Made by a program: the position numbers and the translations under genes
IMG/VR virus record: IMGVR_UViG_3300025736_000177
Coordinates: 1 to 25,476 of that record
From: a virus
Length of the DNA stretch: 25,476 nt
Reading direction: 5' to 3' (one strand)
Notes under the pieces: generated by a model
Told to the model about the DNA's origin: nothing
The model's input: only the letters and a program-made list of their open reading frames with translations
The model's database searches: none
Shown here: in pieces, positions 2,383 to 21,239 of the stretch
How positions within the stretch are numbered: position 1 is the stretch's first letter
How the letters are laid out: every line of letters starts with the position of its first letter

Positions 2383-3000
2383 ATGGTAACTAATAATTCT
2401 TTAAATAATACCTCAAGTACATTTAATCCAGATGAACTAACAGTAAATTCAGTCTATACTTTTCCAGATGCAGATGGTACTGCAGGTGATATACTGTACG
2501 CAGAGACTGGAACAGATGTCTCATGGCAAGAAAATATCTCTGAAGAAAATCTAGTCCAAAATGTTTTTGCTTCAACTACTTCGCTAGTTTCATCTACTAC
2601 TGGCCTGCCTTATGCTAGAGACACGATCCCTCAGAACACAGAAGGAGATGAGATTCTTACAGCTACGATAACACCTAAAAGTTCAACAAATAAATTGTTA
2701 ATACAATTTAGTTGTTCTTTTGCTGTTTCTAGTGTTACAGCTGTTAGTGGAGCCTTATTTCAAGATTCAACAGCAAATGCTTTATCTGCTTCTATTTTTC
2801 AAATAGCAGACGGTGCTAATTATACAGGTTCAGGGATAATAACCCATATTATGGATGCAGGGACAACAAGTTCAACAACTTTTAAGATAAGAGTAGGATC
2901 AACTATGGCTCCTACTGTATATGTAAATGGAAACAGTACAGGAAGAAAATTTGGAGGAGTAGCCTCAACACATCTAATCATTCAGGAGTATAAATCATGA
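2383..3000 (+). CDS. Tail-fibre-type protein, tandem paralogue 3
   Basis: A 205-residue protein with the same architecture as paralogues 1 and 2, starting two bases after the preceding stop. The conserved blocks TIPQNTEGDEILTATITP, GALFQDSTANALSAS, MDAGTTSSTTFKIRVG and FGGVASTHLIIQEYKS are present. The TDGAGAVTW linker is altered to ETGTDVSWQ. Its last codons overlap the ATG of the tail-assembly-like gene at 2997 (ATGA). It is probably a fibre-tip or decoration protein of the tail, with function inferred from position and shared linkers. Confidence 0.7.
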   Translation: MVTNNSLNNTSSTFNPDELTVNSVYTFPDADGTAGDILYAETGTDVSWQENISEENLVQNVFASTTSLVSSTTGLPYARDTIPQNTEGDEILTATITPKSSTNKLLIQFSCSFAVSSVTAVSGALFQDSTANALSASIFQIADGANYTGSGIITHIMDAGTTSSTTFKIRVGSTMAPTVYVNGNSTGRKFGGVASTHLIIQEYKS

Positions 3001-3368
3001 TAAAATATTTTATGAGACCAGACAGCAACACACCACCAGCATATGTTTATATTGAAGGTGATGAGACAGATTCTTTATGGGATTCAAAAACTTGTACAGA
3101 AGTACCTAAAAAGCCTTCTAGTAACCATCTTTATAATATGCAATCTAAGAAATGGGAACTATCAGAAGCTCATTATATGGATCACCTTAGAAACGATAGA
3201 GATAATCTATTGTTGGAGTCTGATAAATATATGATTTCAGATTATCCGATTTCAGAATCAGATAAAGCATTGATGATAACATATAGAAAAGACTTGAGAG
3301 ATTGTCCATCTAAAACAATATTGGCTGAGAGAATTTTGCCAAGTTTCCCAGATCTTAACAAGGGATAA
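2997..3368 (+). CDS. Phage tail assembly chaperone-like protein
   Basis: A 123-residue protein whose start overlaps the preceding stop (ATGA). The C-terminal half, RNDRDNLLLESDKYMISDYP followed by YRKDLRDCPSK, follows the pattern RN-LL--SD----D-P-------YR--LRD-P of the Phage_tail_APC-type domain (from memory PF16778), found beside tail fibre genes. The N-terminal part is a short beta-type segment. It probably helps fold or assemble the fibres encoded just upstream. The family call rests on this motif only. Confidence 0.65.
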   Translation: MIKYFMRPDSNTPPAYVYIEGDETDSLWDSKTCTEVPKKPSSNHLYNMQSKKWELSEAHYMDHLRNDRDNLLLESDKYMISDYPISESDKALMITYRKDLRDCPSKTILAERILPSFPDLNKG

Positions 3369-3373
3369 GTTAA

Positions 3374-3490
3374 ATGTATAAAAAAGCATTAAAAGAAATA
3401 TGGAGAGAGATACCAATGAAAGCAAGATACAGTATATTTTTTATAGTAGGCTTTGTTATTGGAGCCGCGATTCAGCAATTAATATTTTGA
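3374..3490 (+). CDS. Small single-pass membrane protein (38 aa)
   Basis: A 38-residue ORF just after the chaperone-like gene. It has a basic N-terminus (MYKKALKEIWREIPMKARY) followed by a hydrophobic segment (SIFFIVGFVIGAAIQQLIF) long enough to span a membrane, with positive charges on the presumed cytoplasmic side. An in-frame ATG at 3416 could give a 24-residue form with almost only the membrane segment. It is the last rightward gene before the terminator at 3495-3521. A role in lysis (small holin or pinholin) is possible from size and position, but nothing specific shows it. Confidence 0.5.
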   Translation: MYKKALKEIWREIPMKARYSIFFIVGFVIGAAIQQLIF

Positions 3491-3494
3491 AAAG

Positions 3495-3521
3495 AAGCAG
3501 CCAATCAAGGCTGCTTTTTTT
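3495..3521. terminator. Intrinsic terminator between convergent operons
   Basis: An 8-bp GC-containing stem, AAGCAGCC/GGCTGCTT, closes a 6-nt loop and is followed by a T-run on the + strand. It follows the stop of the small membrane gene (3490) and precedes the end of the leftward recombination operon (stop at 3529). On the minus strand the hairpin is followed by a weaker T-rich stretch, so it may work both ways. Confidence 0.85.
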
Positions 3522-3528
3522 AAGATTA

Positions 3529-4404
3529 TTATATTTTTCTTAAAGACCATCTAGTTATTGGTTTTCCAATGTATTGGCTTAAATCAACGTCTAATAGGGC
3601 AGGAATGGCCTTATAGTCAATACGCCCTATGCCAACACTGCATGTATATAGATAATCGCCAGAGCGTGCGTTTCTGTCGTCTGAACGTGATTTTAATGTT
3701 ATCTCTAGTTCCTTTTCTTGAGCAACTAGCATTTTCTTCTGTTGTTTAATATTATATAGCTCCATCGCTACCGTTAACCAATCTTCTCCCTTATCGATAA
3801 AATCATTATCTGTAAGAGGCGGTTCTTTCATTGTTTCAACATATTCCCAAAATTTAGAAAGTTCTTTTTCTAACATCTTGCAATATTCTTCGTCCTTAGC
3901 AACCTTTACTATAACTCCCTCTCCTTTGTGAAAAGAAAAGTAGTCAACAAACGGCAGCTCGGTTACCATTGCCTGCATTTGAACTTGGGGAATATATTTA
4001 GCTGGAACTTTCCCTTCCTTAGCTAATAGATGATCTTCCTCACTGCAATTTTTTATCTCTACTGCACGGTCTTGCGTGATATTTAATCCATCTAGCGAAA
4101 CCATAAGGTAGGGATATTTTTTATTTTTAACACAAGCAGACTCAAAAAGATCTCCGACCATCTCTTGATATGCTTGTCTTGCAGGCTCTTCCATAGCTTT
4201 ACCATATCGAGTAGCAAAATTATCTGTTTCTGTAGTATCTAACCCTAATTTTTCCATCCATAAAAGTCGTGGAGTTTTAATTCTACCGTCATTAGTCTTC
4301 CATTTTGAGACTCCTAAAATAATACTAGCATCCGAGGCGCCAATATGGTTTTTTCTCATGTCTAACCATTCTTGAGTATTTTGTTCAACGTCTACTTTAT
4401 ACAT
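3529..4404 (-). CDS. YqaJ/lambda-exonuclease-like recombination nuclease
   Basis: A 291-residue 5'-3' exonuclease-type protein of the PD-(D/E)XK fold. From the chosen start: TQEWLDMRKNHIGASDASII near residues 10-29 is the typical YqaJ N-terminus; GKAMEEPAR (69-76) gives a conserved Glu; VSLDGL (D105) and AVEIK (E116, K118) form the D-(E)xK site; YIPQVQMQAMV follows near 138-148. The ATG at 4404 has a good GGAGG 7 bases upstream, better than an in-frame ATG at 4428. It overlaps the end of the RecT-like gene by 8 bases. The pair probably resects double-strand ends and loads the annealing protein, as in RecE/RecT or Red systems. Confidence 0.85.
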   Translation of the reverse strand: MYKVDVEQNTQEWLDMRKNHIGASDASIILGVSKWKTNDGRIKTPRLLWMEKLGLDTTETDNFATRYGKAMEEPARQAYQEMVGDLFESACVKNKKYPYLMVSLDGLNITQDRAVEIKNCSEEDHLLAKEGKVPAKYIPQVQMQAMVTELPFVDYFSFHKGEGVIVKVAKDEEYCKMLEKELSKFWEYVETMKEPPLTDNDFIDKGEDWLTVAMELYNIKQQKKMLVAQEKELEITLKSRSDDRNARSGDYLYTCSVGIGRIDYKAIPALLDVDLSQYIGKPITRWSLRKI

Positions 4405-11572: not shown

Positions 11573-11645
11573 GCTGATATAGCTCAATTGGTAGAGCACC
11601 TGATTTGTAACCAGAAGGTCGGGAGTTCGAATCCCTGTGGCAGCA
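11573..11645 (+). tRNA. tRNA-Thr (anticodon UGU), poorly paired
   Basis: A 73-nt cloverleaf: acceptor GCTGATA/TGGCAGC, perfect D stem GCTC/GAGC, anticodon loop TTTGTAA with TGT, variable loop AGGTC, T loop TTCGAAT and discriminator A. No CCA is encoded. Mismatches in this alignment are 5:68 (A-G), 27:43 (C-A), 31:39 (A-C), 49:65 (G-G) and 52:62 (A-C). Loops and invariant bases are intact but three stems are weak. It may be a functional divergent phage tRNA, a decaying one, or a tRNA-like decoy. Confidence 0.75.
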
Positions 11646-17065: not shown

Positions 17066-17740
17066 ATGAATGACGAAAATAACGTTTCGGGCGATCAAAT
17101 TATGGAAGCCGCCGTTCCACCATCAGATGAAAATATTCAAGCTCAACCAGAGCAAGTAGATACAGGCGAGGTTCAACAAGAACAAAACGTACCTTTATCT
17201 GCACTGCAATCTGAAAGAGCGAAAAGACAATCTGTGGAAGATGACCTTCGAATGATAAAGGATCATCTAGCCTTAAACCAAGTGAAGCAATCTCAACCAG
17301 CGCCAAAGAATGATTTCGAAGGCCTGGAAGATGGGGATGTTATGACTGTAGGAGAATTTAAAAAACTCTCTGGAAGCATGGCCAACCAGTTTAAAACAAC
17401 GATTGAAGAAATGAAAATGGCTCAGAAAAATCCCGACTATCAAGAAGTAATCACAAAATATTTACCCGATGTATTGAAACAAAACCCAGGTCTGCAAAGC
17501 ACTCTGCAAAAAACCCAGGATTATGAACTTGCCTACTATTTGGCTAAAAATTCCGAGACATATCGGACTGAGAATAAGAGAAGCAAAAAGTCTGCTGATG
17601 CACAACGCATAGTTGCAAATGCCAATAGGGCAGGAAGTTTATCGAGTACAGGCTCTACTTCACCTATTTCTCAAGCTAAAAGGTACAAGGACATGTCAGA
17701 TGATGAGTTTAAACAGACTGTAGCCAGACATTTGGGATAA
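17066..17740 (+). CDS. Capsid scaffolding protein
   Basis: A 224-residue acidic, Gln-rich helical protein directly before the major capsid gene. A disordered start is followed by VPLSALQSERAKRQSVEDDL (about 42-61), a common scaffold motif, coiled-coil character to about 135 and a basic C-terminus (RYKDMSDDEFKQTVARHLG), as expected for the capsid-contacting tail of a scaffold. It would guide prohead assembly and then leave. AAGGAG at 17049-17054 is the SD, and CTACACACGA abuts the ATG. Confidence 0.8.
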   Translation: MNDENNVSGDQIMEAAVPPSDENIQAQPEQVDTGEVQQEQNVPLSALQSERAKRQSVEDDLRMIKDHLALNQVKQSQPAPKNDFEGLEDGDVMTVGEFKKLSGSMANQFKTTIEEMKMAQKNPDYQEVITKYLPDVLKQNPGLQSTLQKTQDYELAYYLAKNSETYRTENKRSKKSADAQRIVANANRAGSLSSTGSTSPISQAKRYKDMSDDEFKQTVARHLG

Positions 17741-17759
17741 AAAAACTTAGGAGTTTTTT

Positions 17760-18020
17760 ATGACTATGACAACCACAGCGGTACTTTCTCCAGCCGTTCG
17801 GGAATATTACGACAGGCTTTTATTGATGACAGCGTATCCAACGCTTATTCATTTAAAATTTGCCCAGAGACGTATTCTTCCTGAAAAAAACGGAGACACA
17901 ATTGTCTTCAGAAGATACTCAAAACTTGACACAGTACCTATTCCTTTAATTGATGGCCGTACTCCTCCAGGAGCACCACTATCAGCTACAGATATCAAGG
18001 CACGTGTGAGCTTTTACGGT
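17760..18020 (+). CDS. Major capsid protein exon 1
   Basis: Eighty-seven complete codons ending in TACGGT. The final U pairs with G18053 of the intron guide as the usual U-G wobble. Confidence 0.8.
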
Positions 18021-19907
18021 AGACACTATTTGAGTCTTGCAGCTTAGAAATTGCCGTAGTAAAATGATTTCGAATTCGGGGAAACTCCGCAAAGGACAAT
18101 CCCGAGCCAAGCCGCAAAGGAAGGTGTAGAGACTATGTTTAAAAATCGATTAGAGTTTAAGGGAGCAGTAATAGGAATGTGTTTAGGAGATGGACATTTA
18201 AGAATACCAAAAGGCGGTATTAATGCTCAATATTCAATGACGCATTGCAAAAAACAGAAAGATTATATGCTTTATAAAATTGAAATGCTTGAATATTTAA
18301 CATCATGTTGGAGTAAGGAAGGTTCTTCTTCACTAAATGGTAAAATATTTGAAAATTTCAAGATGCAAACTAAATCGCATCCATTTTATACAAAACTAAT
18401 GGATCATCTTTATTTTGATAAAAGACGTACAGTAGATGAACATGTAATGAAATGCATTACACCATTAGGATTAGCATTATGGTATCAGGACGATGGAACA
18501 CTTCGTCAAAATGACGATTTTTTAGTTCCTGTTATATATACATATGCCTATTCAAAGACTGAAGTAGAAATGATGTGTAGAATGCTTCAAAAGAAATTCG
18601 GATTACAATGGAGATGTAATCAACATGATAAATATTTTGCGATGAGATTAAGAAGATCTGATAGAAAACCATTCTATGATTTAATCAGACAATATATTCA
18701 TCCAACAATGGAATACAAGATAAAGGATGACGGACAACGCCCAAGAGCAGATAGGGGTGAAAACTTTACTTTAAACTGTAACCATTGTGGAAAAGATTTT
18801 GATGTCGAATATAAGTATCGAAAAATACGAAAATTTTGCAGCTCAAAATGTTATCATGATAATAGATTAAACAACAAAGAGGAATCACATGCTGAGTAAG
18901 CATGTAAGATATAGTCCAAACCTAGTAGTAATATTAGGAGTTAGCAGAAATGACTAACCGCTCGAAAGAGTAGTAATAAAAAGAATTTTGTAACAATTAC
19001 AAATCAAGTTCAGTTAACCGTTTCATTATTAGGCGGTTATAAAACCTTTTCTAATTGCTTGGAAGCCGCAGCGTAAAGACGGTGGCGACAAGGTGCAAGC
19101 AGAGTTTTGACTCGTGCAGCACGAACGACTAAACGAAAGGGCTCCTTTATAGGAGATGCGATAGTCTGATCCAACTACGACAAGAGTTGGAGGGAAAGTC
19201 GAAGAACTTTTCCCGCCATAGTAATATGGTCAGTAGGCATAACTAAGCCGAAAGTAACAGGTAGCGAAGATAGAGTTTTAAATGAGTCAGCTAGATTGCT
19301 TTCTCAAAATTTAGCTCAAACAATGGACGAAGTAACTCGTGACGTTTTAGCAAGTACAACATCAGTGCTACAGTGTAGCAATGGTATTAATGGTGAAACA
19401 CCAACAGAATTAACTAAAGCTGATATTGACGCTGCAGTTAAAACAATTCTTGGAAACGATGGTGAGATGATCAGCGAAGTAGTAACAGGCACTAACGCTT
19501 TTGCAACTTCACCAGTTAGACCAGCTTTCTGGGGTTACATGGATACAGATCTTTTAGATGACCTAGAAGCTTGTGCTAACTTTGTTAACTCAAGTAACTA
19601 CGCATCTCAAGGTACTGTTTTAGATGCAGAATGGGGCTCAACAGGCAATGTAAGATGGTTATACACGTCAGCAGGTAGCGTAAGCGCTGCAGCGACACCA
19701 GTGTATAATAACATTATTGTTGGTAAAGAGGCGTACGCAGTTGTACACCTTAAATCAGAAACAGGTGATTTCTATGTAGAGCCATTAGGTTCTGGTGGAT
19801 CAGCTGACCCATTACATCAGAGAGGAAGTGTCGGTTGGCAACATCCGTTTGTAGCAAGAATACTAAATGATGCATTTATGCTGAATCTTATGAGCACACA
19901 TTCTTAG
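17760..19907 (+). CDS. Major capsid protein, N4-gp56-like, split by two group I introns
   Basis: Predicted join of 17760-18020, 18984-19021 and 19265-19907 (exon 3 may start at 19262), giving 313 residues. Exon 1 has YDRLLLMTAYPTLIHLKFAQ and GDTIVFRRYSKLDTVPIPL, ending SFYG. Exon 2 adds NFVTITNQVQLTV. Exon 3 continues EDRVLNESARLLSQNLAQTM, then DEVTRDVLASTTSVLQ and ends near VARILNDAFMLNL. This order matches the N4-gp56 capsid family. Without splicing, translation stops at 18047 after 95 residues. The gene follows the scaffold, with AGGAG at 17748-17752 as SD. It builds the icosahedral shell. Exon boundaries are inferred from frame, family pattern and P1/P10 pairing. Confidence 0.85.
18021..18983 (+). 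ncRNA. Group I intron 1 in the capsid gene, with endonuclease ORF
   Basis: A self-splicing intron of 963 nt. P1: exon TACGGT (18015-18020) with guide GCCGTA (18053-18058), U-G at the splice site. P10: exon 2 AATTT with AAATT (18048-18052). P3: TGATTT (18065-18070) with AAATCG (18143-18148). P4: TCGGG (18076-18080) with CCCGA (18101-18105). P5: TCC/GGA within it. P7: GACTA (18131-18135) with TAGTC (18912-18916). After the ORF come a P9-like CCTA/TAGG, GTTAG/CTAAC and CTC-GAAA-GAG. The intron ends in G18983. AAGATATAGTCC before P9 is a typical core element. The type is probably IA. Confidence 0.88.
18135..18899 (+). CDS. Intron-encoded LAGLIDADG homing endonuclease with C-terminal zinc motif
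   Basis: A 254-residue protein. LAGLIDADG motif 1 is GAVIGMCLGDG (10-20, D19) and motif 2 GLALWYQDDG (112-121, D119/D120), so both active-site helices are in one chain. The C-terminus has CNHCGKDF and KFCSSKC (C215, C218, C235, C239), a possible C4 zinc finger that may bind DNA or RNA. It should cut intron-less alleles of the capsid gene so that repair copies the intron in. The ATG lies in P7 and codons 3-5 overlap P3, so the ORF is rooted in the ribozyme core (P8 side). The stop lies in the loop of hairpin ACATGC/GCATGT (18887-18905). Confidence 0.87.
   Translation: MFKNRLEFKGAVIGMCLGDGHLRIPKGGINAQYSMTHCKKQKDYMLYKIEMLEYLTSCWSKEGSSSLNGKIFENFKMQTKSHPFYTKLMDHLYFDKRRTVDEHVMKCITPLGLALWYQDDGTLRQNDDFLVPVIYTYAYSKTEVEMMCRMLQKKFGLQWRCNQHDKYFAMRLRRSDRKPFYDLIRQYIHPTMEYKIKDDGQRPRADRGENFTLNCNHCGKDFDVEYKYRKIRKFCSSKCYHDNRLNNKEESHAE
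18984..19021 (+). CDS. Major capsid protein exon 2 (38-nt micro-exon)
   Basis: Encodes NFVTITNQVQLT plus two bases of a Val codon. It lies between the two introns. Its 3' end TAACCGT pairs with the guide of intron 2, and its first bases pair with intron 1 (P10), so almost the whole exon serves both ribozymes. Confidence 0.8.
19022..19264 (+). ncRNA. Group I intron 2 in the capsid gene, no ORF
   Basis: About 243 nt. P1: exon TAACCGT (19015-19021) with guide GCGGTTA (19033-19039), U-G wobble at the splice site. P7-like GACTA in CGAACGACTAAACG pairs with TAGTC in GCGATAGTCTGATCC. Extra hairpins are CTCC/GGAG, CCAACT/AGTTGG, GGGAAAGT with ACTTTTCCC (one bulge), and CCATA-GTAA-TATGG with a GNRA loop. 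Frame requires exon 3 to start at the third codon base after a G: 19265 (preferred, family length) or 19262. No protein is encoded, so mobility would need help in trans. Confidence 0.8.
19265..19907 (+). CDS. Major capsid protein exon 3
   Basis: Carries most of the capsid fold, from EDRVLNESARLLSQNLAQ to the stop at 19905-19907. A TTG at 19296 opens the same frame but lies inside the conserved helix, so it is not a true start. Confidence 0.8.
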
Positions 19908-19929
19908 GTCTACACAATAATCTAAGAAT
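19900..19929. repeat. Inverted repeat across the capsid stop codon
   Basis: ATTCTTAG (19900-19907) and CTAAGAAT (19922-19929) form a perfect 8-bp stem with a 14-nt loop between the capsid gene and the HNH gene. No T-run follows. It may mark an insertion boundary or slow read-through. Confidence 0.4.
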
Positions 19930-19960
19930 ATGACAAAGTATCTCTAAAGGGAGGTACAAA

Positions 19961-20620
19961 ATGAAGAAATGTACACAATGTGGTAAAGATAAAGATGTTA
20001 CAGAATATTACAAAGATAAAAGACATCCAGATGGATTACGTTATAATTGTAAATCCTGTCAAAATAAAACATCAAACAAATGGAGAAAAGATAATCCTGA
20101 AAATGTTCAGAAAAACCTTAAAACATATTACGACACTCATAAAGAAAATTGGCAAATTCGTGAAAAAAATATGTCCGATGAAGAGCGTGAGAAAAAACGT
20201 ATTAGATCTAAAGAATATTTTGAAAATAATAAGGAACGACTTCTTCAATATAGACGAGAAGAATATGCTTCAATCCCAAAAGAAGACAAAGAGCGTTACT
20301 CTCAAAAGTATTACGACACTCATAAAGAAGAAATTTGTAACCGTGCAAGAAACAATTATGAAAATCTTTCAGACGAGCAAAAGAAAAAAAATACAGAGAG
20401 AAATAAAATTTGGCGACAAAAAAATCGTCAAAAGATGCGTGCTTGGTCAGCTGTTGGAAACTCCCTTCTTAGAGGGGATATGGTTAAACCAATTAAATGC
20501 GAGAAATGTATGAAAGAAGATTCTAGATTACATGCTCACCATGAAGATTACGAAAAACCATTAGAAGTAATATGGCTTTGCCATGAGTGTCATATGAATG
20601 TGCATAAGAAACAACGATAA
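19961..20620 (+). CDS. HNH homing endonuclease
   Basis: A 219-residue protein. An N-terminal zinc finger (CTQC, C4/C7, with C30/C33) begins the type of domain seen in phage HNH enzymes. A long basic helical middle follows, with repeated YYDTHKE units (56-62 and 117-123). The C-terminal HNH core has CEKC (180-183), AHHEDYEKP (192-200, H193/H194), CHECH (207-211) and VH (214-215). It is a free-standing gene between capsid and next head gene with strong SD GGGAGG. It likely nicks or cuts phage DNA nearby and may move itself or the introns. The 21-base repeat at 20126-20146 and 20309-20329 points to internal duplication. Confidence 0.85.
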   Translation: MKKCTQCGKDKDVTEYYKDKRHPDGLRYNCKSCQNKTSNKWRKDNPENVQKNLKTYYDTHKENWQIREKNMSDEEREKKRIRSKEYFENNKERLLQYRREEYASIPKEDKERYSQKYYDTHKEEICNRARNNYENLSDEQKKKNTERNKIWRQKNRQKMRAWSAVGNSLLRGDMVKPIKCEKCMKEDSRLHAHHEDYEKPLEVIWLCHECHMNVHKKQR

Positions 20621-20639
20621 ATGATAGGAGATTAAAATT

Positions 20640-21239
20640 ATGCAAATGAAGGTTTATACCTATACAAATCCAGCGACTGCGGTTGTTAGGAATGAGTCTA
20701 TAGGTTTTACAGTAGATCAAATTACTGTAACAAACGTAACGGATGGAGCTCAGTATTACTGGGATTCCTCTATGACAAATGGTTATTACGTAACAGTTAG
20801 TTCTGGTGCGGTAACTACATCTAATGGTTTCACACCGTTAGCACAATCAACAGCAGTTGGTGCAACCGTTTCTGGTTTCACAAATGCAGCTCCAGGGGTT
20901 TTGACTGTTAATGATACAGCAACTTTTGGCTTTGCAGCTGGCGATACAGTAAAAGTAGTAGGAGTAGCGGATGATTTAACAGGAGACGCAAGTTTAAACA
21001 ACACGTTTACTGTTGCCTCTGTAACTGCAACTACAATTACTTTAGTTGAAGACACTTCTGTAACTGGATATAGCGTCTATGTTTCAGGTGGATATGTAAC
21101 TAGAGTAAGCGACACTGATGGTGTAGCAATACCAGTAGAGAACTTAGCTATACAGGGAATTACTTTAGGAACAGGCGTTGTTGGAACAGACGATGATGTT
21201 ATGACAGTAGTAGCACTTGGATCAAACGTAGTACTGTAG
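20640..21239 (+). CDS. Head/tail structural protein with FCCH-like module
   Basis: A 199-residue Thr/Val/Gly-rich beta protein following the capsid block; SD AGGAGA. The centre (about 82-150: PGVLTVNDTATFGFAAGDTV, then NNTFTVASVTATTITL) has the layout of an FCCH-like or Ig-like beta module also found in the gp10-like gene. The ends are beta-type. It may be a capsid decoration or minor head protein by position; the exact role is unknown. Confidence 0.6.
   Translation: MQMKVYTYTNPATAVVRNESIGFTVDQITVTNVTDGAQYYWDSSMTNGYYVTVSSGAVTTSNGFTPLAQSTAVGATVSGFTNAAPGVLTVNDTATFGFAAGDTVKVVGVADDLTGDASLNNTFTVASVTATTITLVEDTSVTGYSVYVSGGYVTRVSDTDGVAIPVENLAIQGITLGTGVVGTDDDVMTVVALGSNVVL

Follow-up and report, generated by a model that had tools for sequence, protein, structure and literature searches.

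A phage major capsid gene, a ten-site intron hotspot, is split by two predicted self-splicing group I introns from different families

Introduction

Group I introns in phage capsid genes, and short exons between neighboring group I introns, are already established. The major capsid gene of mycobacteriophage LittleE carries a group I-like intron with a LAGLIDADG-like endonuclease, and its splicing was confirmed by RT-PCR (PMC3706429). In Staphylococcus phage Twort, two group I introns (I2 and I3) surround a 23-nt exon of a virion gene, orf142 (tail tube); there the introns are almost copies of each other, in a single subgroup (IA2), and the exon is partly skipped (PMC10136302). Two introns of different subgroups surround a 34-nt exon in Coxiella burnetii 23S rRNA (PMC10136302), and in Thiomargarita nelsonii 23S rRNA three introns leave exons of 14 and 23 nt between them, as computed from the printed positions 2038-2823, 2838-3111 and 3135-3851 (PMC4853749). 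Bastillevirinae and Jug phages are reported to have several group I introns in a single gene, with small exons and exon skipping (PMC11878797, PMC12363816).

Here we describe an N4-gp56 major capsid gene that is very probably interrupted by two self-splicing, mobile group I introns of different families, the splicing of which would give a normal 313-aa protein.

Results

The window analysed (25,476 nt of IMG/VR virus record IMGVR_UViG_3300025736_000177) contains a capsid gene in three exons parted by two group I introns (Table 1). Read without splicing, the frame runs for 87 codons to ..SFYG and then through eight unrelated codons to a stop, at a point where homologues go on with NFVTITNQ. Thirteen conserved residues (NFVTITNQVQLTV) return at 18984, and exon 3 opens at the third base of a V codon (C|GAA GAT), with EDRVLNE.. 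reading from 19266. Joined, the three exons encode 313 aa, free of internal stops and closed by one final stop, and our spliced-alignment script recovered the same boundaries automatically. The original prediction, that the frame breaks after SFYG, resumes for 38 nt and breaks again before EDRVLNE, is borne out by this protein and by uninterrupted IMG/VR relatives, 77-96% identical, which read ..YGNFVTITNQVQLTVEDRVLNE.. without a gap through both junctions, so that chance is excluded.

The comparison with N4-gp56 proteins proposed alongside that prediction gave 201.7 bits for TIGR04387 (N4-gp56 family major capsid protein; cut-off 60) over residues 4-307, the query being the spliced capsid with one extra Ser at the second junction. 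An exon 3 start at T19262, which adds this Ser, was rejected in favor of C19265, as relatives are without the Ser. The two large exons separately match phrog_1357, major head protein. Relatives end at ..THS, so the capsid gene of the window is complete, and a third intron considered at a downstream HNH ORF was dropped on the same ground. This HNH/endonuclease-like ORF (19961-20620; phrog_2340) lies directly 3′ of the complete capsid gene; a close intronless relative, L001, has no space for it between the capsid gene and the next gene.

Table 1 Features of the interrupted capsid gene, in window positions
Feature	Position	Strand	Details
Capsid exon 1	17760-18020	+	261 nt, aa 1-87, MTMTTT..SFYG; phrog_1357 major head protein, E 6e-9
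Group I intron 1 with endonuclease ORF	18021-18983	+	963 nt; P1, P3, P7, terminal G; related same-site introns in L083, L092, L115
Intron 1 P1 5′ strand (exon 1 end)	18014-18020	+	UUACGGU; duplex with guide -7.8 kcal/mol
Intron 1 guide	18048-18059	+	AAAUU (P10 with exon 2 start) and GCCGUAG (P1 3′ strand)
Intron 1 P7 5′ strand	18131-18135	+	GACUA; last A is first base of endonuclease start codon
Putative LAGLIDADG homing endonuclease, I-SceI-like	18135-18899	+	254 aa; PF03161 LAGLIDADG_2, E 4.7e-33
Intron 1 P3 3′ strand, P8, P7 3′ strand	18881-18916	+	P3 3′ strand 18881-18887; P8 CAUGC/GCAUG; P7 3′ strand 18912-18916
Capsid exon 2	18984-19021	+	38 nt, NFVTITNQVQLT + GT; identical peptide in close intronless relatives
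Intron 2 P1 5′ strand (exon 2 end)	19015-19021	+	UAACCGU; 7/7 pairs with GCGGUUA 19033-19039, U-G wobble at splice site
Group I intron 2	19022-19264	+	243 nt, no endonuclease ORF; covariance model R1; covariation
Intron 2 P7	19127-19166	+	GACUA 19127-19131/UAGUC 19162-19166; P3 3′ strand 19135-19141; P8 19142-19155
Capsid exon 3	19265-19907	+	643 nt, complete C-terminus ..LMSTHS; phrog_1357, E 1.2e-21; relatives' ends coincide

Both introns have the features first ascribed to them, namely a P1 with U-G wobble, P7 GACTA/TAGTC and a terminal G. The guide pairs fully with the 5′ exon in each (7/7, with the wobble at the splice site in intron 1 as in intron 2), and the U-G recurs in all 23 introns checked (8/8 LAGLIDADG introns and 15/15 short introns, among which every guide fits its own exon). 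The terminal bases, G18983 and G19264, agree with the reading frame of homologues; because the spliced-alignment script requires a final G, the script is not an independent test of this feature. The guide of intron 1 forms 13 bp with the ligated exons (-14.4 kcal/mol). Exon 2 was expected to contribute its start to P10 of intron 1 and its last seven bases to P1 of intron 2, and it does so: its first five bases, AAUUU, can lengthen the intron 1 guide pairing through AAAUU, and its last seven lie in P1. P10 of intron 2 is weak, the first C-G pair alone being evident.

P3 of intron 1 (TGATTTC/GGAATCA, 7/7 pairs) is formed across the ORF. Over the eight LAGLIDADG introns, pairs form in 55 of the 56 P3 cells, against an average of 45.6 after shuffling (this level is reached in 2 of 2000 shuffles), and in this family P8 varies with its pairing kept and P7 is constant as GACUA/UAGUC. 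Intron 2 is matched at 19041-19191 (99 bits, E 3.3e-21) by R1, a covariance model made from introns that relatives carry at other sites; neither window intron 2 nor its same-site relative went into the model. The alignment of short introns (n = 15; window intron 2 and 14 from relatives, at eight sites) is good, and its P3-P9 region holds 163 cells altered on both sides, compared with 52 in shuffles, a signal that is lost when partners are slid by one column. P3 of this family is 96% paired with 7/7 pairs covarying; P7 is 100% paired, and its variable pair appears as A-U, U-A or G-C across the 15 introns. In the automatic alignment A1, some rows have P1 and P4/P5 shifted by one or two columns, which understates P4/P5 pairing, and P1 was therefore counted separately. 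Intronless homologues, compensatory pairs in P1, P3 and P7, the terminal G and, for intron 2, the R1 match back the assignment of both insertions in the N4-gp56 capsid gene to group I.

On short stretches, the Rfam model RF00028 scored 22.5 bits for intron 1 and 18.0 bits for intron 2 (gathering score 50), at the right positions in both cases and across the full model for intron 2. Run over the window record it gave no match, and the whole-window Rfam search matched neither intron, its sole match being a tRNA at 11573-11645 (51 bits, apparent anticodon TGT); ARAGORN does not report that tRNA.

The intron 1 ORF encodes a protein with a LAGLIDADG fold and two catalytic motifs, GMCLGDGHL and LWYQDDGTL, which by inspection hold acidic residues; I-SceI is its closest relative among solved structures (phmmer 1.7e-12), and we would expect it to act as an endonuclease. 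Between the window and relative L083, dN/dS is 0.07 for the endonuclease and 0.058 for the capsid (dS 0.95 and 1.08), and these low dN/dS values, with similar dS, indicate that both are maintained by purifying selection. The similarity suggests that intron 1 has been inherited with the capsid gene since the window virus and L083 parted. The P7 5′ strand runs into the endonuclease start codon, and the P3 3′ strand and P8 lie within the last codons of the ORF; translation of the endonuclease and folding of the ribozyme should therefore be mutually exclusive on one RNA molecule.

The same two introns occur in a separate contig (L081/L161), whose 11.9-kb match to the window is 99.8% identical and shows no difference in the intron region. 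L083, a 38.7-kb contig of about 83-85% DNA identity, has introns at both window sites and a third at residue 103, and its exons of 261, 38, 12 and 628 nt give an intact capsid protein; spliced alignment places the edges of exon 2 identically in L081 and L083. The 12-nt coding exon of L083 (L083:3493-3504), CGAAGACAGGGT (CGAAGACAGGGU), has 8 nt that belong to P1 of the next intron (L083:3505-3999).

We retrieved 95 different capsid genes, of which 23 are interrupted by one or more introns; the near-complete genes number 89, with 22 interrupted. Three genes have three introns. There are ten insertion sites, after residues 15, 19, 35, 66, 87, 99, 103, 143, 253 and 290, of which 35 and 87 are occupied by the LAGLIDADG family in some genes and by the short family in others; the intron 1 family is found at residue 87 in the relatives of Table 1 and at residue 35/36 in L019, L062, L078 and L134. 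On a tree of 87 capsids, at least 10 changes on well-supported branches are required to explain where introns are present, and adding up the individual sites gives 30 changes, so introns are gained as well as lost. Distant loci (L144-L152, L158, L159 and L162) gave spliced alignments of low score, and the introns in these alignments were judged spurious and left out. Two capsid relatives from the human gut, H1 and H3, are longer by about 220 nt; model R1 detects no intron in them at that place.

The site-103 introns of L130 (3203-4002), L137 (3226-3999) and L097 (769-1568) apparently hold, as judged by eye, a LAGLIDADG-like (LAGFIDGEG) endonuclease ORF on the strand opposite the capsid gene, and the site-103 intron of L083 has a shortened remnant of it. 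A distant capsid gene in L154 (4883 bp) seems to hold four short-family introns, and others of this family were seen in another probable coat gene (several, L152) and in a probable tape-measure gene (L158); given these locations, the short family may favor virion genes. Model R1 also matches the split P22 coat gene of MW202674.1 (L173:2501-2639) with 121 bits, where two annotated CDS surround an unannotated intron of the short family. The sole relative in a GTDB scan is L170 (JAAKFB010000001.1), a 36.5-kb contig in a Chlamydiae MAG whose capsid is 81% identical. A further 7 of 234 Chlamydiae genomes contain weaker relatives of the capsid, a count made in that phylum alone. These matches hint that Chlamydiae might be the host.

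Discussion

We propose that each intron guide would pair with the final seven bases of the exon preceding that intron, that guanosine would attack at the splice site so paired and that the exons would then be ligated, giving the normal 313-aa capsid protein with the 38-nt exon included. The predicted junctions are UUUUACGGU|AAUUUUG and UUAACCGU|CGAAGAU, and an RNA that skipped exon 2 would read UUUUACGGU|CGAAGAU. Own-guide pairing is calculated at -7.8 and -8.3 kcal/mol for introns 1 and 2 and cross pairing at -0.3 and -1.5 kcal/mol; as the guides are too different for each other's splice sites, exon 2 inclusion should dominate. The two ribozymes were originally thought to be obliged to share a minimal exon. 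Both do use exon 2, but they need not compete for it, because P10 of intron 1 and P1 of intron 2 lie at opposite ends, with about 26 nt free between them, and would not collide.

Tandem introns of this kind could instead form an alternative-splicing switch, in which skipping of the 38-nt exon is regulated; exon skipping has been seen in Twort orf142 and SIOphi. Skipping is documented for the 23-nt Twort exon and the 34-nt Coxiella exon (PMC10136302), and in SIOphi exon skipping is reported for about 47% of the transcripts from one gene (PMC11878797). We nonetheless regard a switch as improbable in the window: skipping would shift the frame to a stop after two codons (..SFYGRR*), and the introns belong to different families whose guides barely pair with the other's exon, whereas Twort introns 2 and 3 are highly similar (PMC10136302). 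With a dead product and poor cross pairing, inclusion is the expected outcome.

Assembly chimerism or decay might also explain the breaks, with the capsid gene a broken pseudogene in a defective phage or in a misassembled contig, and this deserves thought given that the window and its relatives are metagenomic contigs. The separate contig, however, differs from the window at 27 positions along the 11.9 kb and nowhere within 17700-20700, L083 repeats both junctions despite its divergence, dN/dS is low for capsid and endonuclease alike, and the inserts fold as covarying ribozymes, which together make artefact or decay highly implausible. Inserts in phage genes are sometimes inteins. Translation of these inserts with the capsid, as inteins or extra domains, is the least credible of the alternatives, for translation would meet an in-frame stop after 8 codons of intron 1 and after about 20 of intron 2, and the one ORF present is a free-starting LAGLIDADG protein without a splicing domain. 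Splicing of two group I introns stands as our reading of the locus.

Both introns would then be mobile elements that landed in a capsid hotspot, intron 1 bringing its own LAGLIDADG endonuclease and intron 2 representing a compact family that is ORF-less at this site. Short introns at different sites have similar bodies, each with a guide matched to its own site. The introns of L120 (residue 15) and L041 (residue 19), at sites 13 nt apart, are identical at 190 of 205 body positions and at 8 of 17 in the guide-bearing first 18 nt; the bodies of the same-site pair L041 and L055 agree at 187 of 206, and L097 (residue 87) and L133 (residue 143) have an identical 75-nt core in common. Similar bodies with differing guides are what introns would be expected to show after moving to new sites and exchanging their guides, a movement for which reverse splicing, endonuclease action and recombination are all candidate routes. 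We tentatively suggest, at slightly less than even confidence, that in this virus group the capsid gene is a landing pad where compact introns of one family repeatedly reach new sites, a few of them as close as 12-13 nt, exchanging the guide and keeping the body, and where ribozymes are packed so densely that 38-nt and even 12-nt exons are spliced correctly.

If so, group I introns would often be spreading ectopically inside a single protein gene, something for which phage examples are rare. The best circumstantial evidence so far had been related introns at two different rDNA sites; here they occupy many sites of one short phage gene. Related introns at many capsid sites and intronless relatives up to 96% identical mean that donor, target and empty site are all available, and the same intron kinds at ten sites make the gene a natural test bed for intron jumping. 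There is also a practical side, in that intron-bearing capsid genes are missed or split by annotation, as with the P22 coat gene entered as two CDS in GenBank MW202674.1.

The newer part of these results is the ten-site capsid hotspot and the predicted 12-nt coding exon of L083; in the open-access literature searched, we found no description of either and no shorter exon. By sequence, the window would add a capsid gene to the settings in which tandem group I ribozymes splice short exons. Two introns this close had been called unusual; they are uncommon, but Twort orf142 (23 nt) and Coxiella 23S rRNA (34 nt) provide precedents (PMC10136302). Compared with Twort, the window has a longer exon of 38 nt, two different intron families and well-separated guides. 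Coxiella, which shares the pairing of different subgroups, differs in that its introns lie in a bacterial rRNA gene and those of the window in a phage protein gene; the Thiomargarita exons are likewise rRNA, whereas the 12-nt exon of L083 is coding. In the Bastillevirinae and Jug reports, as far as their accessible parts go, the genes described are polymerase, terminase and ribonucleotide reductase genes, not capsid genes (PMC11878797, PMC12363816). LittleE, with its capsid intron, differs in having a single intron, and its endonuclease lies on the opposite strand, as apparently in L130, L137 and L097 and not in the window.
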